A DNA stretch of 64,000 nucleotides from Actinomycetospora corticicola. GTDB taxonomy: Bacteria; Actinomycetota; Actinomycetes; Mycobacteriales; Pseudonocardiaceae. Below the pieces are notes generated by a model, which was not told the DNA's origin, did no database searches, and saw only the letters and a program-made list of their open reading frames with translations. Shown here one piece after another: positions 44,739 through 60,969 of the stretch. The number at the start of each line of letters is the position of its first letter. The stretch's first letter is position 1. The translations under genes were made by a program, and so were the position numbers. The DNA is taken from positions 4,278,001 to 4,342,000 of the forward strand of contig NZ_JACCBN010000001.1 of NCBI RefSeq assembly GCF_013409505.1. The letters run 5' to 3'.

Positions 44739-46595
44739 CTACTTCTTGTCGTCGTCGACGATCTCGGCGTCGACGACGTCGTCGTCGGCCGAGCCGTCCG
44801 CGGCACCGGCACCCGCCGCACCGCCGGCCGCGCCCGCGGCGCCGCCCTCGGACTGCGCCTGGGCGTAGATCGCCTGGCCGAGCTCCTGCGAGTCGGTGGC
44901 GAGCTTCTCCACCGCGGACTTGATCGTCTCGGTGTCGTCGCCCTCGAGCGCCTTCTTCAGGTCGTCGAGCGAGCCCTGGACCTTGTCCTTGGTCTCCGCC
45001 GGGACCTTGTCGCCGTTCTCGGAGAGGACCTTCTCGGTCTGGTGGAGGAGCGACTCCGCCTGGTTGCGGGTCTCGGCCGCCTCACGCCGCTTGCGGTCCT
45101 CGTCGGCGTGCGCCTCGGCGTCGGAGACCATGCGGTCGATCTCGTCCTTGGACAGCGCCGACCCACCGGTGATGGTCATGGCCTGCGACTTGCCGGTGCC
45201 CTTGTCGACCGCCGACACGTTGACGATGCCGTTCGCGTCGATGTCGAAGGTGACCTCGATCTGCGGCACGCCCTGCGGGGCCGGGGGCAGCCCGGTCAGC
45301 TCGAACATGCCGAGCTTCTTGTTGTAGGCGGCGATCTCGCGCTCGCCCTGGAAGACCTGGATCTGCACCGACGGCTGGTTGTTCTCGGCCGTGGTGAACA
45401 CCTCCGACTTCTTGGTCGGGATCGTGGTGTTCTTCTCGATCAGCTTGGTCATGACGCCGCCCTTGGTCTCGATGCCGAGGGACAGCGGCGTGACGTCGAG
45501 CAGCAGGACGTCCTTGACGTCACCGCGCAGCACACCGGCCTGCAGGGTCGCGCCGACGGCGACGACCTCGTCCGGGTTCACGCCCTTGTTGGGGTCCTTG
45601 CCGCCGGTGAGCTCCTTGACCAGGTCGGTCACGGCGGGCATGCGGGTGGACCCGCCGACCATGACGACGTGGCTGATCTGCCCGACCGAGATGCCGGCGT
45701 CCTTCACGACCTGGTTGAACGGCTTGCGGCAGCGCTCGAGCAGGTCGGCGGTGATCCGCTGGAACTCCGAGCGCGAGAGCGTCTCGTCGAGGAACAGCGG
45801 GTTCTTGTCGGCGTCGACGGTGATGTAGGGCAGGTTGATGCTGGTCGAGGACGAGCTGGACAGCTCGATCTTCGCCTTCTCGGCGGCCTCGCGGAGCCGC
45901 TGCATCGCCATCTTGTCCTTGGACAGGTCGATGCCCTGCGAGCTCTTGAACTTGTCGACGAGCCAGCCGATGATCTTCTCGTCCCAGTCGTCACCACCGA
46001 GGTTGTTGTCGCCGTTGGTGGCGCGCACCTCGACGACACCGTCGCCGATGTCGAGCAACGAGACGTCGAACGTGCCGCCGCCGAGGTCGAAGACCAGGAT
46101 CGTCTGCTCGTCGGAGCCCTTCTCCAGCCCGTAGGCGAGGGCGGCCGCGGTCGGCTCGTTGACGATGCGGAGCACGTTGAGGCCCGCGATCTGGCCGGCC
46201 TCCTTGGTGGCCTGGCGCTGCGCGTCCTCGAAGTAGGCGGGGACGGTGATCACCGCGTCGGTGACCTCCTCGCCGAGGTAGGACTCGGCGTCGCGCTTGA
46301 GCTTCATCAGCGTGCGGGCGCTGATCTCCTGCGCGGTGTACTTCTTGCCGTCGATCTCCGTGGTCCAGTCGGTGCCCATGTGCCGCTTGACCGACCGGAT
46401 CGTGCGGTCGACGTTCGTCACGGCCTGGTTCTTGGCCGACTGCCCGACGAGGACGTCGCCGTTACGGGCGAAGGCGACCACCGACGGGGTGGTCCGGCTG
46501 CCCTCGGAGTTGGCGATGACCGTGGGCTCGCCACCCTCGAGGACCGCGACCACGGAGTTGGTGGTGCCGAGGTCGATGCCGACCGCTCGCGCCAT
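44739..46595 (-). CDS. dnaK: chaperone DnaK (Hsp70)
   Basis: 618 residues. The ATPase domain opens [22 protein letters not shown] and has [38 protein letters not shown] and [10 protein letters not shown]; the substrate domain follows from about residue 365 ([13 protein letters not shown]), and the lid ends in the acidic DAEIVDDD tail. First gene of the operon, with GGAAGGAG before ATG 46595 and HAIR boxes at 46632-46652 and probably 46686-46706. Also the expected HspR co-repressor. Confidence 0.99.
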
Positions 46596-46631
46596 GTCTG
46601 ATGACTCCTTCCAGGAGCTCGTTCTGCTGTC

Positions 46632-46652
46632 CGTGAGCCCGTCGCGCTCAAG
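46632..46652. promoter_or_regulatory. HAIR (HspR) operator 1 upstream of dnaK
   Basis: CGTGAGC-N7-GCTCAAG, differing from a perfect inverted repeat in one base, with the HAIR 7-nt spacer. It lies 37-57 bp upstream of dnaK ATG. Confidence 0.8.
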
Positions 46653-46685
46653 TCTACCGATCCCGGTCGCGCAGCGCGACCCGGG

Positions 46686-46706
46686 GATGAGTGGAAGGCG
46701 CTCAAC
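46686..46706. promoter_or_regulatory. HAIR-like operator 2 upstream of dnaK
   Basis: GATGAGT-N7-GCTCAAC, a weaker match with the right spacing, 33 bp beyond operator 1. Paired HAIR sites are known ahead of actinobacterial dnaK operons. Confidence 0.55.
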
Positions 46707-46757
46707 TTGCTCTCGTGCGGGACAACGAGCCGGTCACGGGAGTTGTTCCCGGTCGGC

Positions 46758-47855
46758 TCAACTCGTGCCCGCCGGTGCCGTACCCGGTCGGGTCGCGAGC
46801 GGAACCAGACCCTTCTCCGACCAGCTCACCGAGCGGGTGCCGAGCGGCACGCCGGTCTGCTGGGCCTCCATCATCTTCCCGTCGCCCAGGTACAGGGCGA
46901 CGTGGTGGATGGAGTCCGGGTCGGAGCTGTCGTAGGCCCAGAAGAGCAGGTCACCGGGCTGGGCCTGCGCGACGGGGACGTGGGCGCCGGCCCCGTACTG
47001 GTCCCGCGAGACGCGCGGCAGCACGATCCCGGCGGCCTGGAAAGCCCGGAGCATGAGCCCGGAGCAGTCGTAGCTCGACGGCCCGGTCGCCCCCCACACG
47101 TAGGGCTTGCCGGTCTCCCGGGTCGCGAACTCGATCGCCGTGCGGGCGACGCCCGGCGGGAGGGCGGTGGCGACCCCCGCGGTCGGTCCCTCCGCACAGG
47201 GCCGGATCGCGCCCTGGACGCCGGCGAGGTCGCCCACCAGGGACGCCGCGAGCGGTTCCCACTTCGCGTAGGCCTCGGGGAACGCCGAGCGCTGCACGAT
47301 CTGCGCGGCCCGCGTGACCGGCAGGTCCGCCCACCCGGGAACTGCGAGCAGGCGGGTGAGGAAGGTGCGGGTGGCGTACACCGGGTCGCGCACCTGGTCC
47401 GGGCTGCCCCACCCCTGGCTCGGCCGCTGCTGGAACACGCCGAGGGAATCGTGGTCGACGGCCACGTCGATGCCCGCGAGCCCCATCCGCGACTCCTGCA
47501 TGGCCGTCGCCAGTGCGACCACCCAGGCCCGCGGCGGGGCGTCCATGCCCTTCGCGACCCCGATGATCGTCCCCGCGGTGTCCCGCTGGATCTGGTTCAG
47601 GTCCGCCCCGGTGCGCGGGACCCCGACCGCCGCGCGCCCGGCTCCGGCGTCGCACGCCCCGGCCGCGTCCGGGTCGCCGCCGCCGGTGAACTGCCCGACG
47701 ACGAGCAGCCCCATCATCAGCACGACGACGAGCACCCCGGCGAGCACGCCGACCGGGATCAGCAGCCGCAGGAACCGCAGGCGCGACGGCAGGCGCGGCA
47801 GGCGCGGCAGGCGCGGTGGTCCGCCCTGCTCGGGCGGGCGGAGCAGCGTCGTCAT
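46758..47855 (-). CDS. NlpC/P60 (C40) peptidoglycan hydrolase of the T4SS-like operon
   Basis: 365 residues, last gene of the T4SS-like operon. A cytoplasmic N-terminus rich in RLPRLPRL precedes one membrane helix (about 30-53). A lysozyme-like segment (about 95-195: ALATAMQESRMGLAG and HDSLGVFQQRPSQGWG) has a putative catalytic Glu. The NlpC/P60 domain (about 240-345) has Cys in YDCSGLMLRAFQAAG and His in HHVALYLGDG. Such two-domain enzymes open the wall for conjugation machines in Gram-positives (compare TcpG/VirB1 roles). Only 1 bp separates it from the VirB8-like gene upstream. Confidence 0.9.
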   Translation of the reverse strand: MTTLLRPPEQGGPPRLPRLPRLPSRLRFLRLLIPVGVLAGVLVVVLMMGLLVVGQFTGGGDPDAAGACDAGAGRAAVGVPRTGADLNQIQRDTAGTIIGVAKGMDAPPRAWVVALATAMQESRMGLAGIDVAVDHDSLGVFQQRPSQGWGSPDQVRDPVYATRTFLTRLLAVPGWADLPVTRAAQIVQRSAFPEAYAKWEPLAASLVGDLAGVQGAIRPCAEGPTAGVATALPPGVARTAIEFATRETGKPYVWGATGPSSYDCSGLMLRAFQAAGIVLPRVSRDQYGAGAHVPVAQAQPGDLLFWAYDSSDPDSIHHVALYLGDGKMMEAQQTGVPLGTRSVSWSEKGLVPLATRPGTAPAGTS

Positions 47856-47856
47856 C

Positions 47857-48438
47857 TCAGCCGGCCCGGTCGTAGCCGGCCACGCGCCAGTCCCCCGGCG
47901 CGGTCTGGACGAGCAGCAGCTGCAGGGTCACCGCGTCGGTGGGCACCTGGACACGGACGGAGTCGGGACGCACCTCGACGGCCCGCGGCAGGCCGGTGAC
48001 CCGGGTGCCGGGCACGTTGGCCGGGTCGACGTCGGCGAGCGTGGGCAGGTACTCGTCGGTGGTGTACGGCCGGAGCCGGTCGCTCCACTGCGCCGCGGTG
48101 GTCCCCGCCGGGTGGTCCGCCCACGCGGTCGCCCACCGCTGCGCGACGCCGAGCGCGGACTGCGGGGCGGCGGAGAGCGGCAGCGTGGTGGGCGTGAGCT
48201 CGGGCGGCGGGGTCGCGACCGGCGGCGCCACCGTGACCGTCGGCGCCTCGGGCACCGGGCCGAGCGCGGTCCCGGACCCGGCGGGACGCGGTGCCAGCCA
48301 CCCCGAGAGGGCGGTCAGCCCGACGACGACGAGCGCGGCGACGGCGAGCACCAGGACGAGCCGGGCGGGGCTGTGCAGGGGCCATTCCCAGAGCGCGCGG
48401 TAGGCGCCCGAGCGGCCGCGTCGGGTCCGGATCGGCAC
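47857..48438 (-). CDS. VirB8/TcpC-like bitopic membrane protein of the T4SS-like operon
   Basis: 193 residues: a basic cytoplasmic start (RTRRGRSGAYRALWEWP), one membrane helix (about 27-47, LVLVLAVAALVVVGLTAL), a Pro-rich linker, and an extracytoplasmic domain from about residue 90 (ALGVAQRWATAWADHPAGTT, then VQVPTDAVTLQLLLVQTAPG). Size, topology and place fit a VirB8/TcpC-like assembly protein. This is from architecture; I see no decisive motif. It lies 6 bp after the VirB6-like gene. Confidence 0.72.
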   Translation of the reverse strand: MPIRTRRGRSGAYRALWEWPLHSPARLVLVLAVAALVVVGLTALSGWLAPRPAGSGTALGPVPEAPTVTVAPPVATPPPELTPTTLPLSAAPQSALGVAQRWATAWADHPAGTTAAQWSDRLRPYTTDEYLPTLADVDPANVPGTRVTGLPRAVEVRPDSVRVQVPTDAVTLQLLLVQTAPGDWRVAGYDRAG

Positions 48439-48444
48439 GGCGCG

Positions 48445-50268
48445 CTACCTCCCGTCGCCCCGGGGCTCCGGCGTCACGCGACTCTCCAGCACCCGGCCCT
48501 CGACGACGGGTCCGCTCCCGCCGCCGCGGGCCGACGGCCGGTAGATGCGCTGCGCCGGCGCCCCGTCGACCTCGACGACGCGCGGGGCCGCCGCGGGCAG
48601 GGCCGGCCGGACGGCGTCGATCTCGCGGCGCGGTCCCGACGACCGGTCGGGCCGGACCACCTCCGACTCGACGTGCACGGTGCGGGTCCGGGCCGCGCGC
48701 TCGGTGACCGGGTCGGTCTCCTCGGGACGCACCCGCATGCCCTGCGAGTGCCGCTCGGCCCACCAGGAGCCCTCGCGCCCGTCGGACCCCCCGATCCGCC
48801 CGAGCGCACGGCCGAGGGCGCCGCTGCCGCTCGCCGGCAGGAAGCCGCCGACCTGCTCGCGGGTCAGCGAGACCATCGACGTCAGGCGTCGGAACGGCCG
48901 CGACACCGCCCAGAGGATCACCGTGACCACGCCGGTGACCAGGAGCGCGAGCCACGTGTCCACCCCGGACCCGGGCCGGAAGAGCGAGATGACCAGCAGC
49001 GAGTGCAGCCCGGCCAGGGCGCCCACGAGCAGGGTGTTCACCAGCGCCGCGCCGCCCACCCGCAGCATCGCCGGGAGCACCTCCGGGCGCAGCAGCGCCA
49101 CCACCGCCAGGGCGGGCGCGACCATCACCAGCAGCCGGATCATGAGCATCGAGACCAGGATCAGGACCTTGCTCATCAGCTGGAACAGGCCGATGCACGC
49201 GGCCTGCACGAGCGCCAGCACCCCGGCGCCGACGCGGGACCCGGAGCGGCCCTGGAAGTAGGAGTAGCGGTCGCCCACACGGTTCGCGACGTCGGTGAAC
49301 CGGGCCTTCTTCGCGTCCGCCTGGGCCTGCCCGTCCTGCCCGGTCGCGACCTCCACCTTGGAGAAGGTCTGCGCGTCCAGCAGCGGCCGCCCGAGGTCGC
49401 GGGCCTGCGGCACGTCGGCCGACCCGAACTCCCCGCGCAGCCAGTTCGAGTAGACGATCTGGTCGGAGAGCACCGTCGGCAGCGTGTTCTGGTCGCCCAC
49501 GCCGACCTGGCGCAGGAACCCCTGCTGCATGGACGTCACGCCGTCGAGCAGCACCCCGTCCAGCGCGCGCGACCACTGGATCGGCGCCGCGTAGGCCCCG
49601 GCCGCGAGCCCCAGCGCGAGGACCGCGACGAACCCCCGTCGGGCCTGCTGGGACAGCTCGCCGCGCATGGCGAGCACGAGCAGGATCGCCGCGAGCGCCG
49701 CCAGCGCGACCCCCACCCACGTCGTGAAGACGGCCTCGTACATCGCGCGCGTGCCGGTCTGGATGACCTGGTCGAGCGGCGTGAGCAGGCTCGAGCCGCG
49801 GGCGATGAGGTAGTGCGCCCAGTTCACGCCGCCGACCACGAGCTTCGCGACGTTGAAGACCTGGTTGCCCAGCCACGTGTCGGTCGCCGCCGCGGGGTCG
49901 CGCGCCCCGCCCGGACCGCAGCCCAGGTCGTAGGTCCACCACACCTGCCCGGCGTAACCGACCTCGTCGTACACCGAGCCCGGGACGCCGACGCCGATCG
50001 GGGCCGGGTCGAGCGAGCCGACGAGTCCGGTCCCCGGCCGGTCCGGGTCCGGCGGCGCCTTGCAGTCGAACGCCTGCGCCGAGGCGGTCCCGCCGACCAC
50101 GGCGAGCCCGGCGACGAGCGCGCCGACCACGAGCACCGAGCGCAGCCGCCCCCGTGGGGCACGACCCGGCGTCGGGACGGAGCGGTCCTCGCGGCGCGGC
50201 CGACCGCGACGCCACCCGATCACCAGCGCCGCCGCGATGATGCCGAGGACGAGCACGGCACCGCTCAC
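48445..50268 (-). CDS. VirB6/TrbL-like polytopic membrane protein of the T4SS-like operon
   Basis: 607 residues. Two N-terminal hydrophobic segments (the second resembling a signal, VLVVGALVAGLAVVGG) precede an extracytoplasmic region with a Cys pair (FDCKAPPD, YDLGCGPG). Then come at least five membrane helices between about residues 180 and 460, including LILVSMLMIRLLVMVAPALAVVAL, which resembles the VirB6 core. A soluble Arg-rich tail of about 130 residues lies in the cytoplasm. GTG 50268 overlaps the VirB4 stop by 4 bp. It probably forms the inner-membrane part of a translocation channel. Confidence 0.8.
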   Translation of the reverse strand: MSGAVLVLGIIAAALVIGWRRGRPRREDRSVPTPGRAPRGRLRSVLVVGALVAGLAVVGGTASAQAFDCKAPPDPDRPGTGLVGSLDPAPIGVGVPGSVYDEVGYAGQVWWTYDLGCGPGGARDPAAATDTWLGNQVFNVAKLVVGGVNWAHYLIARGSSLLTPLDQVIQTGTRAMYEAVFTTWVGVALAALAAILLVLAMRGELSQQARRGFVAVLALGLAAGAYAAPIQWSRALDGVLLDGVTSMQQGFLRQVGVGDQNTLPTVLSDQIVYSNWLRGEFGSADVPQARDLGRPLLDAQTFSKVEVATGQDGQAQADAKKARFTDVANRVGDRYSYFQGRSGSRVGAGVLALVQAACIGLFQLMSKVLILVSMLMIRLLVMVAPALAVVALLRPEVLPAMLRVGGAALVNTLLVGALAGLHSLLVISLFRPGSGVDTWLALLVTGVVTVILWAVSRPFRRLTSMVSLTREQVGGFLPASGSGALGRALGRIGGSDGREGSWWAERHSQGMRVRPEETDPVTERAARTRTVHVESEVVRPDRSSGPRREIDAVRPALPAAAPRVVEVDGAPAQRIYRPSARGGGSGPVVEGRVLESRVTPEPRGDGR

Positions 50269-53200
50269 CCGTCGCCTCCCCAGCCGGACGAGCGGGCGGC
50301 GGGCACGCCGTCCGCCACCGCGGGCCCCTCCTCCCCCGGCGGGGTCGGGGCCGGGCGCGGCCCGTCGTCGACGGGGAGCCGCGCATGCGGGGCGTCGGCG
50401 GCCGGGGCCGGCGGGAGGTGGGCGCGCTGCGCGTCCGGGTTGGTGTCGAGTGCGGCCCGCAGGTGCCCCAGGTGCTCGCCCTCGAGGTCGACCCGGATCT
50501 TCTCCACGCCGCCGTGCCCGTCGGAGAAGACGAACTGGCGCGGGGTGTCGTCGGGCCGGTCGTCGTGCTGGGCGGCGGTCGGGCGCGGCGAGAGCGTCCC
50601 GAGCATCTCCTCGTACCCGACGTCGGTGGGCACCCGGAGCAGCCGCAGGGCCTCCGCCTGGGCCTCGGCGTCGTCGGTGCGCCCGACGAACACGGCGTCG
50701 ACCAGCGACGCGAAGCCCGGCACGCGGAGCAGGTCGCCGGCGAGCTGGGAGGCGAACAGGGCGCGGACGTTGAACTTGCGGGAGTCGCGGGCGAGCCGGT
50801 CGATGAGGACCTTGCCGGTCGGGATCTGCGACAGGAAGTGGGTCTCGTCGAGCGCGACGCCCTTCCGCAGGTCGCGGTCGGCGGTGTAGACGGTGCGCTG
50901 CGTCAGCCAGGACGCCAGGTTGAGCAGCTCGACCGCCAGGGACTCGCCGTCGGTCCACTCCTCGCGGGGACTGCCGGGGCGCGGCAGCGACATGCCCTGC
51001 ATCGTCAGGACGGTGAGGCGGTAGTCCTCGTCGAGCACGCCCGGGTCCCCGATCGGGCTGTCGTCGGGCCCGCGGGGGTCCTCCGGGTCCTGCGTGCGCT
51101 CCGGGAAGAGCAGGGCGGCCTGCGGCAGCTCGCGGCGCTCCTCGAGGAAGTCCGCCACGACGTCGGCGTGCTCCTCGCCCTCCCGGGCGTGGCGCCGGAG
51201 CGTGGCGATGACCTGGCCCGGGTCGCGGTGCTGCCCGCCGCCGACCTCGCGGACCGCGCGCAGCAGCACGATCCGGGTGTGCGGCATCCGCGCGACGTCG
51301 TAGGGCAGCAGCCCGGTGAGCACGTCGAGCACCAGCCGACGGCGGGTCGCGGCGGCCAGGGAGCGTTCCCGACGCCAGGCCTTCTCCGGATCGTCCTCGT
51401 CGAGGAAGTGCTCGCGGCGCGGCTCAGCGACGACGCGGTAGGGGTTGAGGATGCCGGGATCGGCCCCGAGCAGGTGGATGTGCCGGGAGAACGGGGCGAG
51501 CTCGGGGACGCGGGTGAGCGCCGCCAGCGGGCCCGACGGGTCGAGCACGGTCCACCGCGCCCCGGCGCGCAGGGTCTTGTAGACCATCAGCCCCGTCAGG
51601 AAGGACTTGCCGGAGCCCAGGCCGCCGACGACCGCCGTGAGGCCGGACGCGCGCCGGACCTCCTGGGCCATCCACGGGTCCCACGCCACCGGACGGCGGG
51701 TCGCGGTGCAGGTCTCGCCGAGCAGGACCCCGCGCCGGTCGCCGACGCTCGCCGACGCGGCCGGGACCCCGGCCGCCACCCACGTGACCGATCCGCGGCG
51801 GCGGTAGGCGGTCGAGGCGAGCGGCTCGCCGGGAATGAACTCGCGCGCGTAGGCGTACTGCGCCTCGGGGTGCTCGAGGGCCACCCGCGGGCGGTAGAGG
51901 TCGAGCAGCTGCTGGGCGCGGGTGAGGGCCTCGGCCTCGTCGCGGCCGGCGACCGCGACGCGCCACCAGCCGTACACGCGGGTGTTGAGCTGGGTGAGCC
52001 CGCCCGAGAGCTCGTCCTCGATCTGCAGCACCCGGTCGGCCTGGCGCTCGAGCGACATGGGCGGGTCGAGGTCGTGGTCGTGGGTGTAGTGCCGGATCTG
52101 GCTGCGCACCTTGCCCATCTGGCGCTGCAGCTCGCCCGACACCTCCTCCGGACGACGGACGTAGATGCGCGCCGACCACTCCACGGGGAAGGGGAGCCGG
52201 TCGCTGCGCTGCATCCACGGGTCGTCGGCCTCGGGGATCCGCAGCGAGTCCATGAGGCCGACCGAGAGCACCGCGACGTGCCGCGACACCGGGTACAGGC
52301 CCTGCCGCCCCTCGACCTGGACGGTCGGGGCGTAGGGCTCCTGGTGCATGGACACGCCGTCGGTGAAGGCGGCGAGGTCCTCGGCCTCCCACGCCGTCCC
52401 GGCCTCGGCGTTCACGTGCTGGGGCGCGGGCAGGCCGAGCGCGCACGAGCGGTGCATCAGCCAGGCCATGTCCTCGGCGGTGCACGGGACGCCGTCGAGG
52501 CCCGGCCCGCCGACGAGGGCGTCGACGTGGGCGATCTCGGTCTCGAGGGCCGTGAGCTCGGCGTTCGCGGCGCTCGGCAGCACCCGGTGCAGCACCGGCG
52601 CGGCCGTCTCCAGCCACCGGTCCACCACGGAGCGCCCGGAGACCTCGACGCCGAGGAACACCTCCTTGTCGGCCATCGACAGGCCCATGAGGTGGTGCTG
52701 CTCGCCAGTGACGAACTCCTCCCAGGACAGCTCGCCCGGGACGTCGGGCAGCCGGCCCGGCGAGTTGCGGTCGAACGCCTCCGCCCACCGCGCGACCGGG
52801 AACGGGCGGCTGGTCACCCGCAGGTGCACCCACCGGCCCTGCAGCTCGCCGAGCTGGGCGGCGATGCGGCGGATGAGCGACTCGCGCTGCGGGTCGGAGC
52901 GGAAGCTCCACGGCTGGGGCGCGAGCCGGTACCAGGCGGTGACCGTCGAGCCGGTGCGCGCGATGTTCCCGTCGATCGAGCGCAGCGCGATCGCGGAGCG
53001 GTACCCGGGGGCGGCCGTGGCCCCCGCGAGGGCGCGGCCGCGGCGCGGCTTCGCCTTCGGCCGCGGGCGGCGCAGTCCGGTCGCCGGGGTGTCCGCGGGC
53101 TGCTCGATGCGGTCGGGGTCGAGCGGCCGGTCGTCCGCGACGTCGTCACGGTCCACCGGCACGACCTCGCCCGGCGTCGTCGGGAACGTGCCCCACCCGG

Positions 53201-53288
53201 CGTCGGGGTCGCTCACGGGCTCGGCCTCGCGGGCCTCGGGCCACGGCGCACGCCGACCCCACCCGCCGTCAGGACCTCCCCGGCGCAC
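50265..53288 (-). CDS. VirB4-like conjugation/secretion ATPase
   Basis: 1007 residues. The N-terminal 90 are disordered; about 100-520 match the VirB4-type N domain (SIDGNIARTGSTVTAWYRLAPQPW). The ATPase has Walker A GGLGSGKSF near residue 557, Walker B KGVALDETHFL near 813 and an ALFASQLAGDLL sensor stretch. VirB4 proteins energise T4SS assembly and pilus dynamics. GTG 53288 has GGGAGG about 6 nt upstream and overlaps the PrgI-like gene by 20 bp; GTG 53216 is an alternative. The disordered C-terminus (about 100 residues, Pro/Asp-rich) is unusual. Confidence 0.92.
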   Translation of the reverse strand: MRRGGPDGGWGRRAPWPEAREAEPVSDPDAGWGTFPTTPGEVVPVDRDDVADDRPLDPDRIEQPADTPATGLRRPRPKAKPRRGRALAGATAAPGYRSAIALRSIDGNIARTGSTVTAWYRLAPQPWSFRSDPQRESLIRRIAAQLGELQGRWVHLRVTSRPFPVARWAEAFDRNSPGRLPDVPGELSWEEFVTGEQHHLMGLSMADKEVFLGVEVSGRSVVDRWLETAAPVLHRVLPSAANAELTALETEIAHVDALVGGPGLDGVPCTAEDMAWLMHRSCALGLPAPQHVNAEAGTAWEAEDLAAFTDGVSMHQEPYAPTVQVEGRQGLYPVSRHVAVLSVGLMDSLRIPEADDPWMQRSDRLPFPVEWSARIYVRRPEEVSGELQRQMGKVRSQIRHYTHDHDLDPPMSLERQADRVLQIEDELSGGLTQLNTRVYGWWRVAVAGRDEAEALTRAQQLLDLYRPRVALEHPEAQYAYAREFIPGEPLASTAYRRRGSVTWVAAGVPAASASVGDRRGVLLGETCTATRRPVAWDPWMAQEVRRASGLTAVVGGLGSGKSFLTGLMVYKTLRAGARWTVLDPSGPLAALTRVPELAPFSRHIHLLGADPGILNPYRVVAEPRREHFLDEDDPEKAWRRERSLAAATRRRLVLDVLTGLLPYDVARMPHTRIVLLRAVREVGGGQHRDPGQVIATLRRHAREGEEHADVVADFLEERRELPQAALLFPERTQDPEDPRGPDDSPIGDPGVLDEDYRLTVLTMQGMSLPRPGSPREEWTDGESLAVELLNLASWLTQRTVYTADRDLRKGVALDETHFLSQIPTGKVLIDRLARDSRKFNVRALFASQLAGDLLRVPGFASLVDAVFVGRTDDAEAQAEALRLLRVPTDVGYEEMLGTLSPRPTAAQHDDRPDDTPRQFVFSDGHGGVEKIRVDLEGEHLGHLRAALDTNPDAQRAHLPPAPAADAPHARLPVDDGPRPAPTPPGEEGPAVADGVPAARSSGWGGDG

Positions 53289-53979
53289 CGTCGCCCTCCC
53301 CGTGCTCCCTGCCCGCCGGCCCGTCCGCGCGACCGGTCGCAGTGGGACCGTAGCGACGAGCCCGTCCCGACGCCGGGTCGCGCTGCGGTCGGTCCGCCCG
53401 GCGCGCCGCGACGCGCACGACGCCGTCCGGGCCGACGTCGGACGCGGAGGCGGAGCCGGCGGGCGTGCCGCGGCGGCGCGGGGCCGGTCCGCCGCGCGTG
53501 GTCCAGGACCGCCTCGGCCGACGTCGGGCCCGGTCCCTCGTCGGCGTCGCCGGTGCGGTCGTGTCGGGCACCGCCACCGCGGCGTGGGGGTCGGTGCGGC
53601 CCGGGGGCAGCGCCGCCCGGGGTCGCACGGCCTCGATCGCGACGTGGCCGGCGCTGACCGTGCTGCCCGCGCCGCGCGTGCGACGGCGGGGGCCCCGGAC
53701 CTCGTGCCAGAAGAGGGTCAGCCATTCGAGCAGTGGCCGGTCCTCGTTGATGCGTTTGCTGACGAACCGCACCACGACGACCGTGATCAGCAGCGCCCAC
53801 GCCACCGAGAAGAAGCCGATCTGGATGCCCAGGCGTCGCTGCACGAACATCACGACGATCATGACGATGAGGCCGACGCCGTAGCTCGAGTAGCGCGCGC
53901 GCCAGGGGAAGGTCGCCTTCGGGGGGCCGAGCCAGACGGCGTCGACCCGGTACACGTCGTCGTCGGTGCGGATCTGCAC
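53269..53979 (-). CDS. PrgI/VirB3-like membrane protein of the T4SS-like operon
   Basis: 236 residues. A short N-terminal strand region (MQIRTDDDVYRVDAVWLGPP) is followed by two adjacent membrane helices (about 33-47 and 54-73, GFFSVAWALLITVVVVRFV), the PrgI/VirB3 layout preceding VirB4 in actinobacterial T4SS loci. Residues 95-236 are an Arg/Pro-rich disordered cytoplasmic tail. It starts 3 bp after the pilin-like gene. Assignment rests on topology and gene order. Confidence 0.75.
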   Translation of the reverse strand: MQIRTDDDVYRVDAVWLGPPKATFPWRARYSSYGVGLIVMIVVMFVQRRLGIQIGFFSVAWALLITVVVVRFVSKRINEDRPLLEWLTLFWHEVRGPRRRTRGAGSTVSAGHVAIEAVRPRAALPPGRTDPHAAVAVPDTTAPATPTRDRARRRPRRSWTTRGGPAPRRRGTPAGSASASDVGPDGVVRVAARRADRPQRDPASGRARRYGPTATGRADGPAGREHGEGDGAPGRS

Positions 53980-53982
53980 CCG

Positions 53983-54261
53983 TTACCCCGTGATCAGCTG
54001 GGCCAGGAACTGCCCGACCGCCGGGCCGTTGCCGGAGACCGCGATCCCGAGGGCGACCAGGCCCACGAGCAGGCCCACGCCGCGACGCGCCACGCCCGCG
54101 TTGTCCCCGCGGCCGCCGATCCACAGCATGATCACCGCGATGCCCAGCAGGAGCAGCGGGACGATGTTGTCCCGGATCCAGCCCTGCAGCCCGTTCGTCC
54201 CCAGACCCTGCGCCGTGATCTGGGTGTCGAGGAGGTGCGCGCCCAGGGTCGTGAGGGTCAT
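53983..54261 (-). CDS. small VirB2/pilin-like membrane protein, first gene of the T4SS-like operon
   Basis: 92 residues with two hydrophobic helices (NIVPLLLLGIAVIMLWIGG and GVGLLVGLVALGIAVSG) separated by a short basic loop (RRG), the architecture of VirB2/TrbC pilins. It lacks a recognisable signal peptide. ATG 54261 is used because GGGAGGA lies 7 nt upstream; the earlier frame start (54405) would run through the palindrome and promoter region. Confidence 0.75.
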   Translation of the reverse strand: MTLTTLGAHLLDTQITAQGLGTNGLQGWIRDNIVPLLLLGIAVIMLWIGGRGDNAGVARRGVGLLVGLVALGIAVSGNGPAVGQFLAQLITG

Positions 54262-54677
54262 GCGGTGGTCCTCCCGGACGGTGTCGTGCTGGTTCGGGGT
54301 CGGCCTGACTCGACCGGTCGAGTAAACACGCCGTGCGAGCGGGTCGGTACCCCCGGTGGTGGGCAGCCGCGACCACATTGCGCCAGGGGTGTCGTCCTGC
54401 TCCACGGACGTCGTAGGCCATCGTGGCGTGTCCGCACCGGCATCCGTCGGATGATCGCCTACTCGGGGTTCCGCGCGTGTCGCGGGCCGTGCTGCCGGGT
54501 CCGTCCGGTTACCGGTGAGTAGTGCCTCACCGGTCTCGCTCGGTCGGTGTCGGGGCCAGCCGTTACAGTCCTGCTGATCCGGGCCGACGGCGCGACCACC
54601 ACCGCAGCGCGCTCCCAGGCCCGCCTGAACGTGACGGACCCTGCGGGCGACGCAGCGGTCCGCAGGGAGGTCACACC
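54262..54677. other. divergent intergenic region between the T4SS-like operon and the Fe-S reductase
   Basis: 416 bp holding the promoters of both operons. It includes a perfect 16-bp palindrome (54308-54323) and, at its right end, the strong ribosome site AGGGAGG (54664-54670) of the reductase. An AT-richer patch lies at about 54320-54330 (AGTAAACACG). No gene is supported. Confidence 0.6.
54308..54323. promoter_or_regulatory. 16-bp perfect palindrome, candidate operator of the T4SS-like operon
   Basis: ACTCGACCGGTCGAGT, 47-62 bp upstream of the pilin-like ATG. A perfect dyad of this length in front of a six-gene operon is a good candidate repressor site. No other copy was noticed in the window. 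Confidence 0.5.
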
Positions 54678-57146
54678 GTGCTCGTCCGATTGATCCTGGG
54701 TCTCGCCCTGACCCTGGCCGTGGGGGTGATCGCCGCCCGCCGCGCGTGGTGGCTCTACAGCCTCATCAAGTCCGGGCAGCCCGACGCCAAGCGCTCCGAG
54801 GGTCTCGGTGCCCGGCTGCGCGCCCAGATCGTGGAGGTCGCGGGTCAGCGCAAGCTGCTCCGCTGGTCGATCCCCGGCCTGGCCCACCTCTTCACGATGT
54901 GGGGCTTCGTCATCCTGCTGACGGTCTACATCGAGGCCTACGGCGCGCTGTTCGTGGAGGACTTCCACATCCCGCTGATCGGGCGCTCGCCGATCCTGGG
55001 CTTCGTCCAGGACCTCATCGCCGTCATGGTGCTGCTGTCGATCATCACGTTCGGCATCATGCGCGTGCAGCAGGACCCGGAGCGCAAGCAGCGCTCGTCC
55101 CGCTTCTACGGGTCGCACACGTCCGGCGCCTGGATCGTGCTGTTCCTGATCTTCAACGTGATCTGGACGCTGTTCGCCTTCCGCGGCACCTCGTCGGCGG
55201 CCGGCAACCTGCCCTACGAGTCGGGCGCCTGGGTCTCGATCGCCGTCGGCCAGCTGTTCACCGGCCTCTCCCCGACGACGCTGTTCGTCCTCGAGACGAT
55301 CTTCCTGCTGCTGCACATCGGCGTCGCGCTGGTCTTCCTCGTGCAGGTGCTCTACTCGAAGCACCTCCACATCTTCATCGCGCCGATCAACGTCGCGGCG
55401 AAGCGCCTGCCGAAGGCCCTCGGCCCGCTGCAGCCGATCGAGTACGACGGCAAGCCGATCGACTTCGAGGACCCGCCCGAGGAGGCCTCGTTCGGTCGCG
55501 GCAAGATCGAGGACTTCACGTGGAAGGGCATGCTCGACTTCGAGACGTGCACCGAGTGCGGTCGCTGCCAGTCGCAGTGCCCCGCGTGGAACACCGGCAA
55601 GCCGCTGTCGCCGAAGCTGCTGATCATGGACCTGCGCGACCACATGCTCGCGAAGGCGCCGTACATGATCGGCGGCAAGGACATGCCCGACGGCGGGGGC
55701 ATCGACTGGGACGCGGGCCTCGCGAAGAACGAGCACGGCGGCCACGGCGTCCCCGAGTCGGGCTACGAGCGCCACGTCGGCACGGACGACATCCAGGCCG
55801 CCCGCCCGCTGGTGGGCACCGCCCAGCAGCTCGGCGTCATCGACCCCGAGGTCCTCTGGTCCTGCACCACCTGCGGCGCCTGCGTCGAGCAGTGCCCGGT
55901 GGACATCGAGCACGTCGACCACATCGTCGACATGCGCCGCAACCAGGTGATGATCGAGTCCGAGTTCCCCGGCGAGCTCGGCGTGCTCTTCCGCAACCTG
56001 GAGAACAAGGGCAACCCCTGGGGCCAGAACAACTCCAGCCGCATGGACTGGGCGAAGGACCTCCCCTTCGAGGTGCCCGAGTTCGACGGCGAGCTGTCCC
56101 CGGAGACCGAGTACCTGTTCTTCATCGGCTGTGCGGGTGCGTTCGACGACAACGCGAAGAAGACCGTGCGGGCCACCGCGGAGCTGCTGCACATCGCGGG
56201 CGTGAACTACACGGTGCTCGGCAAGGAGGAGAGCTGCACGGGTGACCCGGCGCGGCGCTCGGGCAACGAGTTCCTCTTCCAGATGATGGCGATGCAGACC
56301 AAGGAGATGCTGGACACGGTCTTCGAGGGCCGCGAACCCGGCACCCGCAAGATCGTCACCACCTGCCCGCACTGCATGAACACGCTCGGGCGCGAGTACC
56401 CGCAGCTCGACGGCCACTACGAGGTCGTCCACCACACCCAGTTGCTCAACCAGCTGGTCCGGGAGAAGAAGCTCATCCCGGTCGCCCCGGAGTCCTCGCC
56501 GGTGCCGCAGGCCAAGCTGGACATCAACCCGGCGACGAACCTGCAGTACAAGGGCCCACAGGCCGACGGCACCGAGCGCGGTCTGGTCAAGGCCGACGGG
56601 CACTCGACGAACGGCCACCCGACCGACCAGGCGGCCCCGGCCTCCGAGGTCGTCTCCACCAACGGGTCGACCAACGGGCACTCGAACGGGCACGGACCGA
56701 AGACCGTGACCTACCACGACCCGTGCTACCTGGGCCGGCACAACGAGGTCTACACCCCGCCGCGTGAGCTGGTGGAGGCCGCGGGCGCGGTGCTCAAGGA
56801 GATGCCGCGCCACGCCGACCGGGCGCTGTGCTGCGGTGCCGGTGGTGCGCGCATGTGGATGGAGGAGAACATCGGCAAGCGCATCAACATGGAGCGCGTC
56901 GACGAGGCCATCTCCGTCGAGCCCGATGTCATCGCCTCCGGCTGCCCGTTCTGCCGCGTCATGCTCACCGACGGCCTCACCGAGCGTCAGAGCGAGGCCA
57001 AGGCGGTCGGCACCGAGGTCATGGACGTCTCGCAGATGCTCCTGGCTGCGGTGAAGCGCGGCGCGCCGGCCGACGGTGACCAGCCGGGCGAGTCCGACCC
57101 GGCCACCACGGCCACCTCGGCGAACGTGCAGAACCCGGCGGAGTAG
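54678..57146 (+). CDS. membrane-bound Fe-S oxidoreductase with CCG domains (Rv0338c-like)
   Basis: 822 residues. The N-terminal part has about six membrane helices (to about residue 235), resembling a NarI-like b-type quinone module. Two 4Fe-4S binding motifs follow, CTECGRCQSQCPAWN near 292 and CTTCGACVEQCPVD near 397. The C-terminal half has two cysteine-rich CCG domains (TTCPHCMNTLG; CYLGRHNEVY and LCCGAGGARMWMEE). This is the actinobacterial heterodisulfide-reductase-like protein, essential in mycobacteria under the name Rv0338c; its electron partner is not settled. An NGH/NGS-rich linker (about 640-675) separates the CCG domains. GTG 54678 has AGGGAGG 7 nt upstream. Confidence 0.95.
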   Translation: MLVRLILGLALTLAVGVIAARRAWWLYSLIKSGQPDAKRSEGLGARLRAQIVEVAGQRKLLRWSIPGLAHLFTMWGFVILLTVYIEAYGALFVEDFHIPLIGRSPILGFVQDLIAVMVLLSIITFGIMRVQQDPERKQRSSRFYGSHTSGAWIVLFLIFNVIWTLFAFRGTSSAAGNLPYESGAWVSIAVGQLFTGLSPTTLFVLETIFLLLHIGVALVFLVQVLYSKHLHIFIAPINVAAKRLPKALGPLQPIEYDGKPIDFEDPPEEASFGRGKIEDFTWKGMLDFETCTECGRCQSQCPAWNTGKPLSPKLLIMDLRDHMLAKAPYMIGGKDMPDGGGIDWDAGLAKNEHGGHGVPESGYERHVGTDDIQAARPLVGTAQQLGVIDPEVLWSCTTCGACVEQCPVDIEHVDHIVDMRRNQVMIESEFPGELGVLFRNLENKGNPWGQNNSSRMDWAKDLPFEVPEFDGELSPETEYLFFIGCAGAFDDNAKKTVRATAELLHIAGVNYTVLGKEESCTGDPARRSGNEFLFQMMAMQTKEMLDTVFEGREPGTRKIVTTCPHCMNTLGREYPQLDGHYEVVHHTQLLNQLVREKKLIPVAPESSPVPQAKLDINPATNLQYKGPQADGTERGLVKADGHSTNGHPTDQAAPASEVVSTNGSTNGHSNGHGPKTVTYHDPCYLGRHNEVYTPPRELVEAAGAVLKEMPRHADRALCCGAGGARMWMEENIGKRINMERVDEAISVEPDVIASGCPFCRVMLTDGLTERQSEAKAVGTEVMDVSQMLLAAVKRGAPADGDQPGESDPATTATSANVQNPAE

Positions 57147-60895: not shown

Positions 60896-60969
60896 GCGAG
60901 TGTAGTTCAGTGGTAGAACATCAGCTTCCCAAGCTGAGAATGCGGGTTCGATTCCCGTCACTCGCTCCA
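60896..60969 (+). tRNA. tRNA-Gly (CCC anticodon)
   Basis: Cloverleaf read by eye: acceptor GCGAGTG / CACTCGC, D arm GTTCAGTGGTAGAAC, anticodon stem TCAGC / GCTGA with loop TTCCCAA (anticodon CCC at 60928-60930), T arm CGGGT-TCGATTC-CCGTC (loop approximate), discriminator T and an encoded CCA. Decodes GGG. TATCGT at 60875-60880 is a plausible -10. No integrated element or repeated 3' end is seen nearby. Confidence 0.95.

Follow-up and report, generated by a model that had tools for sequence, protein, structure and literature searches.

What work is done by a type IV secretion system (T4SS)-like operon that lies in a bacterial chromosome without the genes of DNA transfer beside it? The question is raised by six genes of Actinomycetospora corticicola (Pseudonocardiaceae), found in a 64,000-nucleotide stretch of contig NZ_JACCBN010000001.1 (positions 4,278,001 to 4,342,000 of the forward strand; hereafter the window, numbered from its first letter). 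We consider it likely that the operon encodes a domesticated, vertically inherited T4SS core of the monoderm type, with VirB1-, VirB2-, VirB3-, VirB4-, VirB6- and VirB8-like parts, that is a chromosomal resident of the Pseudonocardiaceae and works without VirD4 or a relaxase. The machine was probably captured, and its job is yet to be discovered.

ORF analysis of the window gave six intact open reading frames (ORFs), all on the minus strand and running from 54261 to 46758:

53983..54261, minus strand: pilin-like protein of 92 aa (VirB2-like by position and topology), an ORF with two hydrophobic segments and a conserved loop
53269..53979, minus strand: PrgI/VirB3-like protein of 236 aa, an ORF with two N-terminal hydrophobic segments and a variable C-terminal tail
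50265..53288, minus strand: VirB4-type ATPase of 1007 aa, with PF12846 and TcpF matches and Walker A and B motifs
48445..50268, minus strand: VirB6-like polytopic membrane protein of 607 aa, with about eight hydrophobic segments, in the slot after VirB4
47857..48438, minus strand: VirB8-like protein of 193 aa, with one N-terminal hydrophobic segment and, in its structural model, an outer alpha+beta domain
46758..47855, minus strand: membrane-anchored NlpC/P60 peptidoglycan hydrolase of 365 aa (VirB1-like role), with a PF00877 match and a hydrophobic anchor

An initial annotation, made from the letters alone, had reported the same order and coordinates, the 92-residue pilin-like protein and a spacing of 1-6 bp or overlaps of 4 and 20 bp. 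The ORFs are present as it described, and the junctions, in operon order, are a 3-bp gap, a 20-bp overlap, a 4-bp overlap, a 6-bp gap and a 1-bp gap. Chance ORFs are excluded because the genes are conserved across genomes and because of their ratios of nonsynonymous to synonymous substitution (dN/dS).

The distribution of the operon was determined using the window VirB4 as the query in an even sample of the host's family (60 genomes including the host, from 46 genera). VirB4 was found in 60/60 genomes and 46/46 genera, at a single locus in 59 of the 60, with an additional remote match in the remaining genome (G088). A first survey within the genus had detected it in 11/12 other members at 82-94% identity, the sole member without a match being a draft that is 83% complete in 640 contigs. 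Gene order was examined in the best 80 of 459 loci from a scan of named genomes of relatives, several of which are ended by contig ends. Eleven of the 80 were too short to judge, and all six genes, with order and strand, were kept in 66 of the 69 long enough (14/14 in Actinomycetospora, 17/18 in Pseudonocardia-like genomes and 35/37 in other genera). The exceptions are L071 and L104, with no detectable NlpC gene, and L101, with no pilin-like gene (weak match, E 0.01). In other families of the order, VirB4 relatives were present in 3/8 sampled genomes, at 53% (L035, G018), 40% (L036, G020) and 29% identity (L037, G016); the relative in G020 contains two TGA stops and lies on a 3.1-kb contig.

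The operon was next considered together with the genes that flank it in the window, which lie outside the machine:

54262..54521, no strand: divergent intergenic region toward the Fe-S reductase gene, where the operon promoter is presumed to lie
54522..57146, plus strand: iron-sulfur (Fe-S; CCG/4Fe-4S) reductase, the upstream flank (PF02754, 2.3e-31)
44739..46595, minus strand: dnaK, the downstream flank (PF00012, NF001413)

These profile matches bear out the initial annotation, which had set the operon between dnaK and an Fe-S reductase gene and had suggested following that interval through related genomes. The interval proved to be conserved in Actinomycetospora, where both genes hold their places in 14/14 testable named loci and also in 11/11 genus-member loci, a set that overlaps the named ones. 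It is mostly conserved in Pseudonocardia-like genomes, with the Fe-S gene upstream in 16/17 and dnaK within reach downstream in 10/14. It did not extend to the other genera, in which each gene was near the operon in 0/36 loci. There another site is conserved: 29/43 loci have a Zn-ribbon gene and 29/43 an RNase H/His-phosphatase gene, mostly on the upstream side, and 17/43 have an RNB gene (counts that include shortened loci). The operon thus occupies two conserved sites and has probably relocated once. Chromosome-sized contigs bear it in L065 (6.7 Mb), L070 (7.1 Mb), L075 (7.3 Mb) and L093 (11.6 Mb), the window contig itself measuring 6.17 Mb; for loci on small contigs, the flanks point to a chromosomal placement.

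Smaller features of the site were also recorded. A consensus scan for a promoter and a terminator at the operon returned no match. Positions 46631-46710, upstream of dnaK, hold sequences that we take to resemble the HspR/HAIR operator, and these would give dnaK a promoter of its own, separate from the operon. The distance from the NlpC gene to dnaK is 1.1-1.6 kb in 4/14 Actinomycetospora loci versus about 0.2 kb elsewhere, and in one such gap (L078:15030-15933) an SDR-like ORF was seen by eye. Directly 3' of the NlpC gene in L057-L122 (for example L060:14638-15066) stands a conserved gene, named c5 here, with a core of 130-160 aa and the motif LPRSLAESMPLPWQQ...WPxYRVVPSR. It follows NlpC in 36/36 testable other-genus loci, 10/16 Pseudonocardia-like loci and 0/14 Actinomycetospora loci. 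Local tblastn found no c5 in the window or in the Actinomycetospora loci, and a profile search of the host and 20 relatives, run without a positive control, found none. The c5 product has no Pfam, PDB or fold match, and with this result and the size of its core it was rejected as a VirD4.

The inheritance of the operon was followed through its VirB4. A quick maximum-likelihood tree of 93 rows united the window with the 80 genome loci in a single clade (SH-aLRT 99) that excluded the nine plasmid rows, and the nearest rows to the window protein were all Actinomycetospora. Genus labels required 20 changes for 21 groups, the minimum possible, with 23 unlabelled rows uncounted; the deeper branching order is unsure because the outgroup branches are long. 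VirB4 distances followed DnaK distances closely (Mantel Spearman 0.93, 22 loci; 0/2000 permutations as high) and Fe-S reductase distances less so (0.56, 33 loci, 0/2000; within Pseudonocardia 0.41, 11/1000). Since the DnaK and Fe-S genes adjoin the operon, these tests are not independent and joint transfer of the segment is possible. Purifying selection acts on all six genes. Against the four nearest species, dN/dS was 0.05-0.15 for the NlpC, VirB8-like, VirB6-like and VirB4 genes, 0.17-0.28 for the PrgI-like gene and 0-0.07 for the pilin-like gene, with DnaK at 0.07-0.09. The pilin-like gene had a dN of 0 against the two nearest species tested. Ratios reached 0.57 (VirB8-like) in the most distant of eight species, where dS is about 0.5 and ratios are less trustworthy. 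The guanine-cytosine (GC) content per 2-kb step inside the operon was 0.75-0.78, within the range of the window and with no deviation.

Genes of mobile elements were sought at the loci by tblastn with eight plasmid FtsK proteins, two VirD4 proteins from the host genome, a TrwC relaxase and an integrase and FtsK of the actinomycete integrative and conjugative element (AICE) type as queries. None matched in the window, in agreement with the initial annotation, which had seen no relaxase, VirD4 or integrase there; not every window ORF was profile-scanned. The genome loci were clean in 79/80 cases as far as their sequence reaches, the only exception being an AICE-type FtsK about 5-6 kb upstream in L112. 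By the same searches no VirD4/TcpA-type coupling protein goes with the operon, a relaxase, coupling protein and integrase do not occur together at the locus (replication genes had no profile search), and the TraB/FtsK translocase and integrase of the AICE type are absent from it. The nearest tRNA gene in the window, at 60896, is 6.6 kb from the operon.

It is therefore very improbable, and already strongly contradicted, that the operon still belongs to a conjugative or integrative element, whether whole or in decay. Relatives of the operon do occur on linear plasmids, with VirB4 identities of 34.9-42.7% in the 30 best records, and a relaxase, VirD4s and AICE-like sites are present at other places in the host genome. 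Against such membership stand the presence of VirB4 in all 60 sampled family genomes, at one locus, the kept gene order, the purifying selection, the conserved flanks, the lack of element genes at 79/80 loci as far as their sequence reaches and the distance to the nearest tRNA gene. An ordinary mobile element was rejected on distribution, synteny and selection. The sporadic distribution and shifting location expected of a conjugative plasmid or an integrative and conjugative element did not appear in the distribution, synteny and distance tests. The initial annotation had proposed a domesticated, non-conjugative machine, to be doubted if the operon were sporadic and of odd composition. Its proposal is supported by distribution, synteny, selection and the lack of linked element genes, and what was found instead of sporadic presence was a family-wide operon of kept order, with GC in range and a VirB4 that tracks DnaK.

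The annotation's other ground for doubt, a relaxase, VirD4 and integrase set elsewhere that forms one element with the operon, directed attention to the rest of the host genome (G000). One VirD4-like gene lies at about 6.10 Mb (L039:8879-18173), beside a gene for a 1457-aa protein with TrwC relaxase and AAA domains. No VirB4 is present there, because the sole PF12846 match in a profile search of the genome is the window VirB4, and the site is possibly a mobilizable element; a weak DUF2637 match was also noted at it. A second VirD4-like gene, of 548 aa, lies at about 0.66 Mb (L038:9162-10808), with a transposase-like ORF seen by eye about 4.5 kb off. Its best matches in 12 other Actinomycetospora are 30-34% identical, with none in four of those, and given these identities it was rejected as a relocated partner of the operon. 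Two AICE-like clusters of similar layout were found at about 4.24 Mb (L040:8085-11316), with an FtsK domain and an integrase by Pfam, and at about 5.40 Mb (L041:6432-9432), with an FtsK match only. The nearest of these relaxase, VirD4 or AICE-like sites is about 77 kb from the operon and the rest are at least 1 Mb away, and across the family PF02534 (VirD4) gave no match in 37/60 genomes, including 13/16 one-contig genomes, all 60 having VirB4.

The same data bear on a resident public channel, in which elements with a relaxase and VirD4 and without VirB4 would plug into the chromosomal apparatus for their transfer. The host has one PF12846 VirB4 but two VirD4-like genes, one of them beside the TrwC relaxase. 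PF02534 was found in 23/60 family genomes (the host and 22 others), and a search with the window VirB4 returned nothing but its own orthologue in 22 of them. Actinobacteria are moreover described, in the accessible passages of PMC3158045, as having many relaxases and few T4SSs or type IV coupling proteins (T4CPs). The family was searched with only the window VirB4 as query, however, so that other VirB4 types could be missed, and a physical or genetic link between the elements and the operon is only presumed. Because 37 genomes keep the operon but gave no VirD4 match, serving mobile elements can hardly be the role for which it was selected and is unlikely to be its chief one, though use in trans is possible. 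We regard a public channel as quite unlikely to explain the operon.

Where such a machine could come from is suggested by its plasmid relatives. A tblastn search of 72,556 plasmid records with VirB4 matched 288, all below 60% identity, and nine loci on actinobacterial linear plasmids and megaplasmids were examined (L010-L013 and L131-L135). The first four share the PrgI-VirB4-VirB6 order of the window (4/4 by tblastn), with a hydrolase in 3/4 and a VirB8-like gene in 2/4; in L013, transposases interrupt the operon after VirB6. The other five have a similar layout, with order taken mainly from annotated gene sizes and some parts by tblastn. The Rhodococcus loci L134 and L135 end with an M23-type hydrolase, unlike the NlpC/P60 enzyme of the window, and the small first gene of the window operon was matched in only a few plasmid loci. 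ParA-type genes are present in 9/9 of these plasmid-borne loci, whereas the window operon is chromosomal. An FtsK/SpoIIIE-type gene is near the plasmid operon in 9/9 (annotated in eight, and by tblastn about 6 kb past the operon in L012), and tblastn found none in the window. In this respect the chromosomal operon resembles the plasmid machine with its DNA motor taken away. We infer an origin from the conjugation-operon lineage now on actinobacterial linear plasmids, with loss of the FtsK/SpoIIIE partner, a direction that the tree does not prove.

The products themselves were then compared with known families. The initial annotation had named a T4SS component for each, and of these names the VirB4 ATPase, with its intact Walker motifs, and the hydrolase stand on significant profile matches, while the VirB3-, VirB6- and VirB8-like names drew only weak matches and the pilin-like name none. 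VirB4 matches PF12846 at 2e-18, with the ATPase domain at residues 548-889 of 1007, and NCBIfam TcpF at 1.6e-17, far under that model's cut-off; its profile also matches the solved VirB4-like protein 4ag5 (5.6e-12) in a PDB profile search. By alignment, Walker A (GGLGSGKS) occupies residues 555-562 and Walker B (LDE) residues 813-815. The hydrolase matches PF00877 at 7.9e-25, with DCSG and HHVALYLG motifs and a hydrophobic anchor, and its middle region, which has no family match, we presume to be lytic-transglycosylase-like. The operon thereby has two of the parts by which a monoderm T4SS core (MPF-FA/FATA type) is recognized, a VirB4 ATPase with Walker A and B and a membrane-anchored peptidoglycan hydrolase (VirB1).

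The four remaining proteins had no Pfam match of their own at E 0.1 and no significant NCBIfam match, and nothing significant was found against PDB profiles. Their names come from topology, operon position and weak matches of single relatives, the hydrophobic segments numbering two in the pilin-like, two in the PrgI/VirB3-like, about eight in the VirB6-like and one in the VirB8-like protein. Among relatives of the PrgI/VirB3-like protein, TcpE was matched at 0.008 in 1/28 and DUF6249, with a better best value of 0.00056, in 5/28. Relatives of the VirB6-like protein gave TrbL/VirB6 at 0.01 in 1/23 and, again better, DUF3021 in 2/23 (best 0.00054), the window protein itself having a weak match to NF046089 (0.016). 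For the VirB8-like protein, TpcC was matched at 0.022 in 1/44 relatives and DUF2275 at a better 0.0087 in 1/44. Its AlphaFold model (predicted local distance difference test score, pLDDT, 86) lay near VirB8/IcmL and other NTF2-type folds in Foldseek without reaching significance (E >= 0.06), the neighbors comprising an IcmL-like T4SS protein, CagV (VirB8), a Rickettsia VirB8-like protein and many plastid PARC6 chains. The pilin-like protein is VirB2-like by position and topology only, with no family match in Pfam and no meaningful match to PDB profiles; an alignment of 29 members has 23 invariant columns and the conserved loop GG[RK]GDNAGV.RR. The gene for this small, conserved two-segment protein comes first in the operon, and among close species its dN is lower than that of the other five, as might be expected if the genes assembled only a VirB2-like short pilus or an adhesin and translocated nothing. 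The VirB6-like, VirB8-like and hydrolase genes are also kept, which suggests a channel and makes assembly of a pilus alone improbable.

A nearer precedent for function is the cmdABCDEF operon of Streptomyces coelicolor (SCO4126-4131). As far as the accessible passages of PMC2782261 describe it, cmd comprises six co-transcribed chromosomal genes with a VirB4-like ATPase, proposed to form a membrane complex; mutants have sporulation and chromosome-segregation defects, and linear-plasmid transfer was not significantly different on deletion, the operon being no stand-in for the transfer genes of a plasmid (PMC2782261). By that source, CmdC resembles SCO6880 and the P-loop domain of CmdB is positioned near the N-terminus. 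Among the literature found, cmd is the nearest published precedent, sharing with the window operon a six-gene chromosomal cluster and a VirB4-like ATPase. A developmental or envelope machine of this sort, in which the channel exports a protein or wall signal or helps hyphae to septate and to partition their chromosomes, as has been proposed for cmd, would also fit the wall hydrolase and the missing VirD4 and relaxase at the locus.

The builds of the two operons were compared using a cmd-type set recognized by the SCO6880 family and layout, with five genes from L148 (G058), where the contig stops within the sixth, and that sixth gene taken instead from L146 (G037). The L148 genes encode a small membrane protein of 105 aa, proteins of 290 aa and 442 aa, an SCO6880-family protein of 509 aa and an ATPase of 465 aa, and the sixth product has a weak TraG-D_C match. 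The cmd type thus has an SCO6880-family protein, a short ATPase and a TraG-like protein, with no NlpC seen, whereas the window operon has one long VirB4. BLASTP of the cmd-type proteins against the six window and seven plasmid proteins gave a best E of 0.074, and the SCO6880 family, present in 14/40 genomes of the class, had no match in the host genome. The window operon was therefore rejected as a cmd orthologue on the absent family, the lack of BLASTP similarity and the different ATPase build. On these comparisons, cmd and the present operon are distinct T4SS-like machines of the chromosome. Any analogy is one of function alone, and we hold a developmental or envelope role to be unlikely, if the strongest of the alternatives.

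Some T4SSs dispense with a coupling protein altogether. Ptl and the Brucella VirB system export proteins. Both are cited as T4SSs without a coupling protein in the accessible passages of PMC12102498. The archaeal Ced and Ted systems are described, again in partial view of the source, as domesticated derivatives of T4SSs that lie in the chromosome, have counterparts of VirB4, VirB6 and VirB2 and lack an apparent relaxase; Ced is reported to import DNA (PMC9905601). The window operon is like them in architecture only, with a chromosomal VirB4, a VirB6-like protein and a small two-helix protein (the latter two by topology) and no relaxase found at its locus. It is bacterial where they are archaeal, and it has the VirB8-like and wall-hydrolase parts that go unmentioned in those passages. 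The T4SS of Patescibacteria, monoderm, group-wide, mostly without a relaxase and with a T4CP gene mostly not near virB4, has been called co-opted (PMC12102498, PMC12857230, in the passages available). It differs from the window operon in belonging to epibionts, in its number of pilins, as many as six at the locus studied, and in its VirB4 lineage. Conjugative T4SSs of Firmicutes (Tn916, pCF10, pIP501) have a VirB1/3/4/6/8 set and a wall hydrolase (PMC12857230, likewise in part), to which the window operon has like parts, and its VirB4 matches NCBIfam TcpF. Those systems are on conjugative elements with a relaxase and coupling protein, in contrast to the window operon, at whose locus neither was found. 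Among the titles and abstract openings listed by literature searches, with most subscription journals outside their coverage, none described the present operon.

Taken as a domesticated T4SS core, the operon would work as follows. The NlpC/P60 protein would locally open the wall, the VirB8- and VirB6-like proteins would form a trans-envelope channel and the VirB3-like protein would hold VirB4. VirB4 would in turn supply the power to assemble the small pilin-like subunit and to move the substrate through, with no coupling protein. Function as a secretion or envelope machine, which the initial annotation had already offered, can be argued from this architecture, and the substrate is the least certain part. 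Tentatively, and at somewhat below an even chance, it may be DNA, passed between neighboring cells or hyphae or taken up, as in Ced/Ted. Two considerations put DNA exchange or uptake in first place: plasmids carry the sister operons, and the channel parts correspond to those of Ced with wall-crossing parts added; a cmd-like developmental or envelope role would rank next, close behind.

Several points weigh against a domesticated core of this kind. The analysis found no DNA-processing gene, no effector and no regulator to fix its substrate. Four of its six parts are named by topology, position and weak matches, their homology is not significant, and families of unrelated DUF type equal or outscore the T4SS families in the same scans of relatives. 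VirD4-like genes in the host and 22 other sampled genomes could act in trans, and one of the host's FtsK-family ATPases, which by our reading include FtsK proper and ESX ATPases, could serve as a coupling ATPase. The gene-order sample consists of the best 80 of 459 relatives, several of them contig-cut, the tree was built quickly and its outgroup branches are long, and the flanking yardsticks leave joint transfer of the segment possible, with a weak Fe-S correlation within Pseudonocardia.

A broader possibility, which we consider rather unlikely, is that the operon represents a general VirD4-independent T4SS of the Pseudonocardiaceae for chromosomal DNA exchange or uptake, a bacterial counterpart of Ced that also serves as a shared channel for elements with a relaxase and VirD4 that lack their own VirB4. 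The Pseudonocardiaceae are rich in antibiotic producers. Every sampled genome of this family holds the VirB4 of one T4SS-like operon, the loci are conserved and many of the genomes gave no VirD4 match, which turns the question into a gene-deletion experiment in non-pathogenic, cultivable strains. The operon is also a possible apparatus for the actinobacterial elements that have relaxases and no T4SS (PMC3158045, in the passages available).

A last observation concerns VirB4 itself. In 2/60 family genomes (G095 and G086; L151:7627-11718 and L152:7593-11750) the Walker A loop (P-loop) is interrupted by an intein-like in-frame insert of about 360 aa. No intein-splicing domain was matched in the insert, the Hom_end match was below cut-off, and the insert matches LAGLIDADG_3 and carries a C-terminal HN ahead of Ser.

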